Source of the DNA: Linderina pennispora
Lineage: Eukaryota > Kickxellomycota > Kickxellomycetes > Kickxellales > Kickxellaceae
Assembly (NCBI RefSeq): GCF_002104995.1
Contig: NW_024468257.1
Span: forward strand, 124,001 to 188,000
Direction: 5' to 3'
Length of the DNA stretch: 64,000 bases
The position numbers were made by a program, and so were the translations under genes. Under the pieces are notes generated by a model. That model was not told the origin of the DNA, ran no database searches, and was given only the letters and a program-made list of their open reading frames with translations. Shown here piece after piece: positions 51,129 through 55,208 of this stretch. How positions within the stretch are numbered: the stretch's first letter is position 1; each line of letters begins with the position of its first letter.

Positions 51129-51857
51129 TGTTTTACACGATGCTACCGTGCACTACAGCTTTTCTAGAACTGATTTGATGACTTTAGAATGCGCGCAATA
51201 AGCGGCCAGTGAGCAAACAATTGGAAGTCTGGGTTGTCAGCACATCTTTTACCTATATATAAGATTTTATAGTCCAAAAAGTGTCCGACCGTTCGCTAGA
51301 GCCTTCTTATTAGTTAAACAAAAAACTCCTATGCTTCAACACAAATTTGGGTGACTTGCTCTGTAAACTCCTTTTGATCTTGTGTGGCATCTGACCTCAT
51401 CAGTGAAACCAGGGTGACAAGCTGGTATTGTAGTGGTCACTGGTTTCCACTAGATACCTCCATTGGTTCAGCACAAGAGCTGCTCTCATTGTCGGTCGGC
51501 CTGATAACTTCCATGGCATCATCATGTTGGTCATCACTGGCTGCGCAACACTCCTAGGATATTTATCTATGAGCACCTATTGAATGAGGCCATATAGCTC
51601 TTCTAGCAGTCATGCAATATTTGTGGATATATTTTATAAATTAATTTGTCTCATGAACATGCGCAAGCAGTAGTATTTGGGCCACAATGGACCCAGTCTG
51701 TATAGACTGACTCAAGAGACTGTATCAGTGCTAAGGGCCCCAAGAACTATGCAAGCCAGATCATTTTTAATAGAAAGTTCTTAATGCTATGCATCTGCAA
51801 TACAGCAAAACTGAACAGCATCATTTCTCTTCTTACTTTGCCTATTGAGTTTCTCAA
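51129..51857. other. Spacer upstream of the Fanzor
   Basis: 729 bp with mixed, rather AT-rich composition. No coding sequence, terminal inverted repeat or RNA gene was recognised. If the Fanzor belongs to a transposon, its 5' end should lie here. Confidence 0.5.
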
Positions 51858-53759
51858 ATGAATATTACCCGCAGCACTACTGCCATAAAGACATCACTTG
51901 GTGGTATTGGCTTCCGTGATTCTATGTTGCCCCGCCTAGAGCAATTTGTATACAGTGTCAATATCATCAAAGAGCATACATACATGCTTGCATGATGGAT
52001 ATTACTCCATCAACTAGCTGACGATGATGCCTTTGACCCTGCAACATTTGTGAATAAGGGGGCTTTCGTTCTATTTATTTATTTATCTATCATAACATGA
52101 AGGCAAATCCACTTGCTGCTATCAGAATTAGATTTTCCTCATTTCATTGTTCTATTTTCTCTTTATATTTTGCTACCCAGTCCAATACTGGACCGGATCC
52201 TTCTTGTCTTCCTTCTATATTTTTTCTACTTGCTTAGTGCCTTTCTGCACTCTCTCACACTTTCCCAATATATCTATCTTCGGGTGTTCCAGCCCGCTCT
52301 ACAATTTTACTTGTATCGCTTGTAATCTTCTGACAGCTGCTGCATCGGCGGCAGCAGCAGACACTGTTGCAGCACTTAACAATGCATATGCACCAGCACC
52401 CCCAGTCTGTGCACACGACCCGGTCCAAGGGGTTACACAATCTGTGTGGGATGTGTGGGGCCGGGTTGCAGATCTAACATCAAAGCCATTTAAGGTGCAT
52501 GGTGATAGAAAATTCCACGGAATGGTGACAACAGATGGTGTAATGATATGCATTCTGTTACAAGACAAGGTATCCAAGGCTGATGCTGCAGTAGGTGCTG
52601 ATGCTGCGGGAGGCGATGCTGCGGGAGGCGATTCTGTGGGAGGCAATACTATAGCTGACTGTTGCTATATCCACCAGATCCCACAGCCTGAGCTGCAGAA
52701 TCTGAAAGGCGCTGTGTATTCATCGATCCAGGTCGGGGCGATTTGCTATACATGATGCACGAAAATAGCAGCAATGGGAAAGAGGGTGAAAAAAATGCTC
52801 TACCGCTACGCACGGCAGCAGCGCAATAAGGAGCTCAAGCTGCGCCACTATGACAGGATTCGTCAGGCTACAAAAGATCAAGTCCCAGAAGATGCTGTCC
52901 GCAGAGCAGAGGCAGAGCTTTCCAAGCACTGCTGCCGGACCCTTAGCCCAGCAAAATTCCGTGCCTACGTTGCTGCCCGTGCATCTGTGCGGTGTGTCCT
53001 AGCACCGTTTTATGCAAACACGGTGACAACACGAATGTTACTAGAGCAGCAGCCAACTAAGTCAAACAAGCAGCACCAAAGGCGCTGGAAGGCCCATCCA
53101 GGTGTCAGTACCAGTCCCAAGGTGTACCCGCTTCACCGCAAGCTGCGCCTTGATTCATTCATGAACCAGGCCCGTGCAGACCACAGGCTTGCCGCAAAAC
53201 TCCGGAGCAAGTTTGGAGCAAGTTCGGTCCAGATCCAGTGGTGATCATGGGCAATTGGAGTGCGCCAATGGCCCGATACCATGCGCTGATTCATGGCAAG
53301 GGATGGCGCGACAAGTTCAAGCACCATGGCTTTGAAGTCTATCTGATCGACGAATTCCGGACATCGTCGATGTGCCCGTTCTGCTGCGAAAAGTCACTGC
53401 AGACATTCCGGCATGTTCCCAACCCGCGGCCCTACCAGAGATCGAAGAACTCAACTGTGAAGTGCCATGTCCTTCTCCGCTGTACAAGCGAGTCATGTAA
53501 GCGGGCCATGGCACAATACAGGCGGGCCTATTCGTCTCAGCTCTTGAACCGCGATCTCGCAGCAGTTCTAAACTTCAGACTCATTTTCCAGTCACTCTGT
53601 GATTCAGGCAGTATTCCTGAACGGTTCCGTCGCTCTACGGCTATTGCTGCCAATGCTTCTGGCACCACCCCTGCAACAAAGAGGCCGCGCAAGAGGCGTG
53701 CAGCAGCAGGCGATTCTGTTGCCAGCAGCAGCGAGCCAGCGCTGAAGCGCCTGCGCTGA
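51858..53759 (+). CDS. Fanzor (eukaryotic TnpB-like RNA-guided nuclease), disrupted
   Basis: Fanzors are eukaryotic relatives of transposon TnpB that cut DNA guided by an omega RNA. An N-terminal block at 51858-52070 (FRDSMLPRLEQFVYSVNII, ADDDAFDPATF) carries an in-frame TGA at 51993. A pre-RuvC block (KFHGMVTTDGVMICILLQDK) lies near 52500-52570. RuvC-I reads IDPGRGDLLY with Asp at 52725-52727. A basic helical segment follows (YRYARQQRNKELKLRHYDR). RuvC-II lies in VYLIDEFRTSSMCPFC with Glu at 53352-53354. The same segment opens a zinc finger, CPFC, completed by a downstream CTSESC. RuvC-III is NRDLAAVLNF with Asp at 53553-53555. The C-terminus ends with a nuclear-localisation-like KRPRKRR. 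Frame changes at about 52720, 52770 (run of seven A) and 53210 break it, and the stretch 52071-52330 is not recognisable. So the catalytic set is present but the gene as given is not intact. Confidence 0.85.
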
Positions 53760-55208
53760 GCAGGCCATCAAGACAGGAGATGTCCATGATCGACATTGCA
53801 CCAACAACCATCCGACACGTTCAAATGACCGGTTCGCCGTGATGCCCTTATCGATGTGTCAACCCATGCTGACTAGCAGCCGAGCTCGCATCGCAAGCAG
53901 AGTAATTATAGTACGATAAATTATGGAAAATGGGTCAGCATTAGGGTTAGAGAGTAGAGGAAATTGGTAGTTGGGTGGTGGTGGTAGTGAGGAAGTAGGG
54001 ATGAAGCAGTCAGTATGACATTTTGTGAGGACACGAAGAGGCAGGAGGGCAGTGAAGGACGACGACGGTGTGTTTGAAGTGACGCGAGTGCAGCTAGGAA
54101 CAGAGGTAAAGAGGCAGATGACGCAGGAGGAAGAGGTGACAACGAGTGAGTAGCAGAGCAGACTGACCTGGCAGACGCTGTGGACATGAGGGAGCAGACG
54201 ATTCAGTAGCGCAGATTATGCTGGCAGACCCAGCGACGACACCAAGAGGCTAGAAACGGCTAGCGGATCAAGGTATCGCGAAAAGAGTGCAATAATGACA
54301 CTGCAGACCAAACTCGGGAGAAGAAACGGAGAGGAAAAATGTGCAATGACAAGATGGAGGGGGAGGCATACGATGGCGTCGGCACGCCCATGCAAGCCGC
54401 TTGTGTGATTTTTCCCTTGTTTGTGACAACTTTTTAATCAGGTGAACAGAATGCACAACCAGATCAGCAGGCAACTAAGGCTTGTGTGCTTGCAGCGTGT
54501 TCTTTGGTGACATGGCTACCCCACTAGCGGCGTCAGCATAGGCCATGAGATGTCGGCTTTCTAGTCGACAGCCCACTGGGCCACTTGGATGTGCGACCGA
54601 TAGATATGTCTTCAGGGTACCAGATAGCAAAAGAAATTCCAGTTAGCGCTCGTCATTTTCTGCCATTTTCTGCCATTTTCTGTTACATCTGGTTTTTACA
54701 TATCAATTTCCATATCCTCGCCTATACAGACATCTGCGGCGGGCTGTCGCCACTTTTAGTTACAACATCGATATGTATCAGTGATAGCCATGTGCACAAG
54801 TGTGATCTGTGTTGTGGTCGAGCTTGTTGCTGGCAGAGACTTTCTGTGCAATATGTCGCATCTGCACAGCGAGCAGTGGGTATGCCCATTTGGTAATCCT
54901 AGCGTCTAGCCGTGCAGCACCGGTGGTGGAGGCTCTAGGAAACCTCTGCCTATCTGCCTACCTGGTTGACAAGGTATCACGCGTGGGCGTCTCCATTTGC
55001 GCTGGAGTACTTGGGAGCATTTTCTCCGCATCACGAAATAGCCCTAGCCATCTCCACCCACGTCATCGAGCAAACTGGCTGGGCATGGCTTTTTCTCCCT
55101 ATTTTCGTCAACGCTTCTGCATTTTACTCGTGCATTCGCAGTTTTTGCATTAAAGCTGGCTTCATTTTCAAACATTTATTCCTTTCTTGTTCTTGCTGCC
55201 ACAAAAGA
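53760..55208. other. Fanzor 3' flank and rabenosyn 5' region
   Basis: 1.45 kb without a recognised gene. Directly after the Fanzor stop the sequence is mixed and then becomes purine-rich on the + strand (about 53935-54130). An omega RNA, if encoded on the 3' side as in TnpB systems, would lie in the first few hundred bases. An open frame upstream of the rabenosyn start (54966-55208) looks like leader sequence. Confidence 0.5.

Follow-up and report, generated by a model that had tools for sequence, protein, structure and literature searches.

The Fanzor locus and its neighbours

The window analysed here is a stretch of 64,000 nucleotides of the Linderina pennispora genome (contig NW_024468257.1, positions 124,001 to 188,000, forward strand). 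At positions 51858-53759 the initial annotation had named a fungal Fanzor copy lying between a transporter and a trafficking gene, and this was borne out. The motifs it had quoted all lie on the + strand, in the order IDPGRGDLLY, VYLIDEFRTSS, CPFC...CTSESC and NRDLAAVLNF, followed by a basic tail ending at the stop codon. An MFS transporter gene (PF07690, 2.4e-16 in Pfam) adjoins the Fanzor unit on one side, and a gene with the FYVE/Rabenosyn domains PF01363 and PF11464 (Pfam) lies on the other. Judged from an uninterrupted paralogue, P0001, position 51858 is the ATG and 53759 the stop end of the Fanzor frame. The moved unit is not the gene alone but a 2667-bp Helitron (51245-53911), which begins 117 bp downstream of the MFS stop codon. 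The features of the locus are as follows.

51245..53911 (+): Helitron1 unit of 2667 bp, non-autonomous and bearing Fanzor; borders set by aligning both termini of many copies, and by genome-wide end patterns
51244 and 53912-53913 (+): host bases at the borders, A before and TA after; end alignment
51245..51300 (+): Helitron 5' terminus, TCTTTTACCTATATATAAGATTTTATAG...; 5'-end alignment, 127 places genome-wide
51858..52119 (+): Fanzor N-terminal remnant, ~residues 1-85, with an in-frame stop; tblastn of P0001
52120..52335 (+): ~216-bp repeat of another family, in place of ~residues 85-365; 29 genome places including the window
52336..52709 (+): Fanzor remnant to ~residue 508, frame 3; DNA match from 52336, tblastn from 52375 (residue 378)
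52710..52784 (+): RuvC-I stretch, catalytic Asp codon at 52725-52727, frame 2; motif and tblastn
52785..53235 (+): Fanzor ~residues 534-683, frame 3; tblastn
53220..53759 (+): RuvC-II, TNB zinc finger, RuvC-III, basic tail and stop, frame 2; motifs, PDB match, tblastn
53352-53354 (+): RuvC-II Glu codon; VYLIDEFRTSS motif
53373-53384 and 53481-53498 (+): zinc-finger pairs CPFC and CTSESC; motifs
53553-53555 (+): RuvC-III Asp codon; NRDLAAVLNF motif
53757-53759 (+): Fanzor stop codon; frame 2
53810..53911 (+): final ~100 bp, on position only a candidate scaffold of an omegaRNA; low ratio of shared to private variants, fold no better than shuffles
53884-53898 (+): Helitron 3' hairpin, one stem base altered; comparison with other copies

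Identity of the Fanzor protein

Profile comparisons with Pfam and the PDB were made with the separate window pieces and with P0001. The C-terminal frame of the window (53154-53759, 201 aa) matched the solved Fanzor1 proteins of Parasitella parasitica (PpFz1, E = 1.8e-34) and Spizellomyces (SpuFz1, 4.5e-21) in the PDB, and the frame at 52756-53244 gave a weak match to PpFz1 (2.2e-4). On the profile check proposed in the initial annotation, the PDB match to Fanzor1 was strong; the Pfam model Cas12f1-like_TNB scored 19.9 bits on the window, under its cut-off of 26.3. A PF07282 profile search across the genome found no match, this family search being too weak in the Linderina genome, and no Pfam family was named for P0001 at E = 0.01.

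P0001 (L034:409-2997, 863 aa) begins with MNITRSTT; its start resembles that of the window frame, and it extends a few residues beyond the latter. It aligns with PpFz1 at a whole-sequence E value of 2.4e-83, residues 7-302, 491-620 and 650-812 matching and residues 402-442 forming a weak stretch; residues 7-302, the N-terminal REC/WED region, are homologous with an i-Evalue of 6.3e-25. The match to SpuFz1 (2.9e-33) falls mostly on residues 647-814, and that to GtFz1 (7.9e-6) includes no single stretch passing alone. The RuvC-I stretch is weak against SpuFz1 (i-Evalue 28) and clear against PpFz1 (4.6e-13). The RuvC Asp/Glu/Asp triad, with the Glu in DE[FY]xTS, is assigned by alignment to the solved Fanzors: D514, E719 and D786 of P0001 align with D383, E541 and D606 of SpuFz1 (numbered with a chain offset of 394 derived from the P0001-PDB alignment), which are named as metal-binding in the excerpt consulted of PMC10432273. 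These three residues are kept in 29/30, 29/30 and 30/30 copies, respectively, and all three codons are present in the window; the C4 (TNB) zinc finger that separates RuvC-II from RuvC-III retains its four cysteines in 30/30.

One search for relatives of the Fanzor protein returned 14, all from Coemansia. A search with the RuvC part gave 130, and those with an organism name among the 120 matches listed were from Coemansia and Mucoromycota, Parasitella included. A profile built from 15 relatives had one protein only in its result. We regard the identity of the window gene as Fanzor1 as practically certain.

Decay of the window copy

The Fanzor frame of the window is broken into pieces lying in element frames 2, 3, 2, 3 and 2, with internal stops. 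By tblastn, residues 1-92 of P0001 match 51858-52136 with stops (77% identity, E = 1.7e-37), residues 378-863 match in alternating frames, and residues 93-377 find no match in the window copy. The last bases of the first piece overlap a 216-bp repeat, so that the true gap is ~residues 85-365. The DNA match to other copies stops near 52107 and restarts at 52336, and the repeat itself, at 52120-52335, occurs at 29 places in the genome, the window included; by our reading it is LTR- or MITE-like. Most of the N-terminal region homologous to the solved Fanzor1 proteins is gone (tblastn against P0001). The window copy has no intact reading frame, with frameshifts, stops and a large missing part, and is a pseudogene, which can make no Fanzor. 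The finding in the window is real and correctly named; the copy, however, is dead.

Both flanks of the window insertion recur on contig C84, at 98% and 96% identity. The element on C84 has no match to window positions 52107-53397; it was thus cut in another way than the window copy.

Ends and copy number of the Helitron unit

The initial annotation had also proposed a search for intact sister copies. Such copies were found, some of them uninterrupted: the 26.17-Mb assembly contains at least 152 matches to the Fanzor protein, and at 14 of the matches listed the open frame, measured from one stop to the next, spans at least 798 codons. The borders were set with 20 copies plus the window, L058 and L060 at the 5' side, and with 61 ends representing 44 different flanks at the 3' side. 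They are sharp: a host A is followed by TC... at the 5' end, and a hairpin and CTRR are followed by host TA at the 3' end. TA directly follows all 61 3' ends. CTRR is present in 42 of the 44 different ends (39 CTAG, 3 CTGG), the exceptions being CTTG and the ATAG of the window copy, where most other copies have CTAG; the exact hairpin GCTCGCATCGCGAGC is found in at least 29 of the 44. At the 5' side, TC follows the host A in most ends (A at 51244 and TC at 51245-51246 in the window), and a few vary, for example L064 (ACC) and L080. Allowing up to 3 mismatches, the 3' end pattern occurs at 201 places in the genome and the 5' end pattern at 127, and the backwards control gave 0 for both. Judged by these patterns, the ends of the Fanzor unit are those of a canonical Helitron1.

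Some of the flank statistics reflect how the flanks were chosen. Sixty flanks were picked with a pattern starting ATCTTT, a choice that in part dictates the A at -1; the T at -2 in 51/71 flanks is inflated by ATCTTT repeats; and 9/80 flanks not ending in A, at least 4 of them misoriented, were left out of the tally. Extra ATCTTT hexamers precede many of the 5' ends (L088, L099, L077, L079 and others), which looks like a multiplication of the terminal hexamer. At L033, two 3' ends lie in opposite orientation within ~2.6 kb.

A RepHel unit joined to the Fanzor unit

A Helitron_like_N profile matched 13 places in the genome, of which one belongs to a clearly different family. This more distant match (G000:C68:198243-198650, - strand) lies inside a 1989-aa open frame and likely belongs to a second Helitron family. 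The RepHel unit joined to the Fanzor unit matches Helitron_like_N (PF14214, 2e-49) and the PIF1 helicase (PF05970, 2e-78) in Pfam and has the HUH and Tyr motifs. In copy L087 (C157:10900-20100), a 5' end of the Fanzor-unit type precedes Rep and PIF1 helicase frames; the RepHel unit then ends in its own hairpin and CTAG, directly followed by the Fanzor unit. The L087 RepHel protein is spread over several open frames (introns or frameshifts). The Tyr motif of Rep reads KYLFKSVYKG in L087/L082 (one copy) and KYLFKYVYKG in L083-L086, the second tyrosine being lost in the former.

Up to 3 mismatches allowed, the RepHel 3' end is found at 8 places in the genome. At all 8, the CTAG abuts the 5' end of a Fanzor unit with zero host bases, and hence no host A, in between; the plain TCTTTACC start follows in 5/8, and few-base changes occur just after CTAG in 3/8. 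This count covers RepHel units with a recognisable 3' end. The remnants on C182 and C127 stand outside it, that on C182 ending short of the terminus and continuing into other sequence. In addition, one site with the same flanks holds a tandem on C112 and a solo Fanzor unit on C208. Together with the eight junctions, this pair makes the tandem appear to be the autonomous form. We consider it very probable that the autonomous element is a RepHel-Fanzor tandem, and the solo Fanzor units appear to be its many satellites. The main caution as to its present activity is that RepHel is itself broken in several copies.

Filled and element-free sites

For 19 sites, a search was made for the two flanks joined, and an element-free counterpart was found on another contig for 5 of them. 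The one on C58 has no extra base and no target duplication, with one substitution at the junction. In the other four (sites L149, L157, L158 and L159) the insertion point holds additional bases: ~9 on C193, ~8 on C106, ~11 on C206 and ~104 on C16. Extra bases being present at four of the five, Helitron1 insertion without target duplication is seen at C58 alone, itself one base changed.

The extra bases look like footprints of excision, or like bases that insertion removed; the change may have run in either direction. Repair scars of Fanzor were considered as another source. Cas12-type cuts would fall ~15-20 nt further in, and footprints or deletion on insertion fit better. For maize Helitrons, TA-repeat excision footprints are reported in the excerpt at hand of PMC10095026.

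On several contigs (C84, C80, C175, C203, C208 and others), the two flanks of a site known from another contig recur with ~91-100% identity across 37-54 bases. These contigs are probably alternative haplotypes or duplications.

Selection on the Fanzor copies

Selection was assessed on the 30 copies with the best DNA match to the window (L031-L060), codon columns covered by fewer than 12 copies being dropped. Variants private to one copy comprised 442 nonsynonymous and 181 synonymous changes (omega ~1.02), and those present in two or more copies 203 and 146 (omega ~0.58), a significant contrast (Fisher P = 7e-5). By region, the contrast was found in the N-terminal part (P = 4e-4), and was not significant in the middle (P = 0.27) or in the RuvC part (P = 0.22), where omega was 0.75 for private and 0.55 for shared variants. 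The simplest reading is constraint in the source lineages and neutral decay after insertion, as the two variant classes suggest. Recurrent CpG changes, of which there are many here, may be counted among the shared variants; 6 shared variants are stops. Only 4 of the 30 copies have no frameshift or stop relative to L034. An 834-bp deletion is common to L037, L039 and L044, which indicates that a deleted form also spread, and that Fanzor is not needed in cis.

The 3' end as a candidate guide RNA

The last 101 bp of the element were compared with the leader for variant classes, L047 and the window copy (L031) being left out. They contain 32 private and 10 shared variants; the corresponding counts for the leader are 87 and 64 (P = 0.03). 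Per site, shared variants show no significant deficit (P = 0.16), and private variants are more numerous. A sub-region contrast over the 44 ends was weak (P = 0.08 and 0.16). RNA folding of the 3' end was no better than that of shuffles (z = -0.66 and -0.12), an Rfam search of it found no match, and there was hardly any covariation within it, pairs varying almost only on one side. From position only, an omegaRNA might be drawn from this 3' end, with the flank as guide.

Origin of the window copy and possible role of Fanzor

Our explanation is that the dead Fanzor1 gene of the window was brought there as the cargo of a canonical Helitron1 with a RepHel partner, and we give this a probability of about 0.85 as a whole. 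RepHel would mobilise Fanzor units both in cis (the tandems) and in trans (the solo units). The scaffold would be carried by an RNA reading out through the 3' end, with the flanking host sequence serving as guide. An intact Fanzor would then cut the matching element-free allele, and repair would copy the element in. The window copy, with its 3'-end region kept, would at most be a 'ghost' guide locus.

Such a homing or retention role of Fanzor is a tentative proposal, to which we give somewhat less than even odds; it is weakened by the possibility that the donor site keeps its element when a Helitron is copied out. A more elaborate version, which we think rather unlikely, would make the obligate RepHel-Fanzor tandem the eukaryotic counterpart of bacterial TnpA/TnpB. 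The 3' hairpin would also be the scaffold end, and A^TA would also be the target-adjacent motif. Once a Helitron was lost, Fanzor would cut the element-free allele, and escaped alleles would be those with altered junctions. All five element-free sites found are altered at the junction.

Fanzor could also be a passive cargo that gives the element no advantage and spread by hitch-hiking. This is a possible, though doubtful, alternative: internally deleted derivatives spread, RepHel units are few, private changes are neutral, and the RuvC part taken alone lacks the selection contrast. Neutral cargo, however, should not be conserved in source lineages; the overall omega of the shared variants and the near absence of catalytic and zinc residue losses in 30 copies therefore speak against it.

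It is improbable that RepHel and Fanzor units are mere neighbours by repeated independent insertion, forming no composite. The few-base differences at three junctions would suit such insertions, but the direct joining of CTAG to the Fanzor 5' end in every case, lacking the host A, and the plain start in five argue for a composite. That the window copy is a functional, single-copy, domesticated host gene, as its position between two ordinary host genes might suggest, is refuted by its broken and incomplete frame, its Helitron ends and the 152 matches. An inserted TnpB from a giant virus or a bacterium, or contamination, has next to no probability: Fanzor2 and TnpB do occur in viruses and bacteria (PMC3627910), but the relatives with an organism name, among the matches listed, are from Coemansia and Mucoromycota, and copies with host flanks are scattered over many contigs.

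We therefore retain the reading of a dead Helitron1 cargo gene, and compare it with known systems on the basis of excerpts of the papers cited. The Linderina family shares homologous N-terminal, RuvC and zinc-finger regions with PpFz1 (PDB 9cf0-9cf3) and SpuFz1 (8gkh, 9ceu-9cez), with D/E/D positions alike and the Glu in DE[FY]xTS. Terminal inverted repeats of 33 bp, with putative duplications of TA, are described for the SPu-1 element (PMC3627910); the Linderina element is a Helitron that lacks such repeats, and its window copy is broken. Closest in kind are CRe-1, -2 and -3 of Chlamydomonas, where Fanzor1 lies in Helitron2 elements (Bao and Jurka 2013, PMC3627910): they too are many-copy, non-autonomous Helitrons with 5' truncations and internal deletions. 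They differ in having two hairpins and inserting after TTTT, whereas the fungal Linderina element is a Helitron1 (TC...CTRR, A^TA) whose RepHel unit is physically joined to Fanzor. Precise end-to-end joins, copies in tandem and several 5' termini within a single element are described for Helraiser (PMC5876387) and for Fusarium and Metarhizium Helitrons (PMC5148889); in Linderina, in contrast, the genes differ between the two joined units, and the only complete RepHel form found is this join. Yoon et al. 2023 report a Helitron association of Fanzor, with hundreds of copies (PMC10711439), and Saito et al. 2023 mention a possible Fanzor role with HUH transposons such as Helitrons, as well as guide-only 'ghost' loci, stating that the function remains unknown (PMC10432273). 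Fanzors in Helitrons, and joined Helitron units, are thus known. In the excerpts covered by our literature search on Fanzor and Helitron, neither a RepHel-Fanzor tandem nor a Fanzor-bearing fungal canonical Helitron1 was found, and the Fanzor papers among the matches listed, all of which also mention Helitron, contain none of the names Linderina, Coemansia or Kickxell. Within that literature, the union of RepHel and Fanzor in a canonical fungal Helitron is new.

The surprise lies in the family, in which a joined RepHel and Fanzor, signs of past selection, and filled and empty sites are found in one assembly. The uninterrupted relatives of the dead window copy could reveal what RNA-guided cutters do for transposons. 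With linked RepHel-Fanzor units, long open frames, many non-working copies and filled/empty pairs, the service of Fanzor to its transposon is directly testable in one fungal genome.
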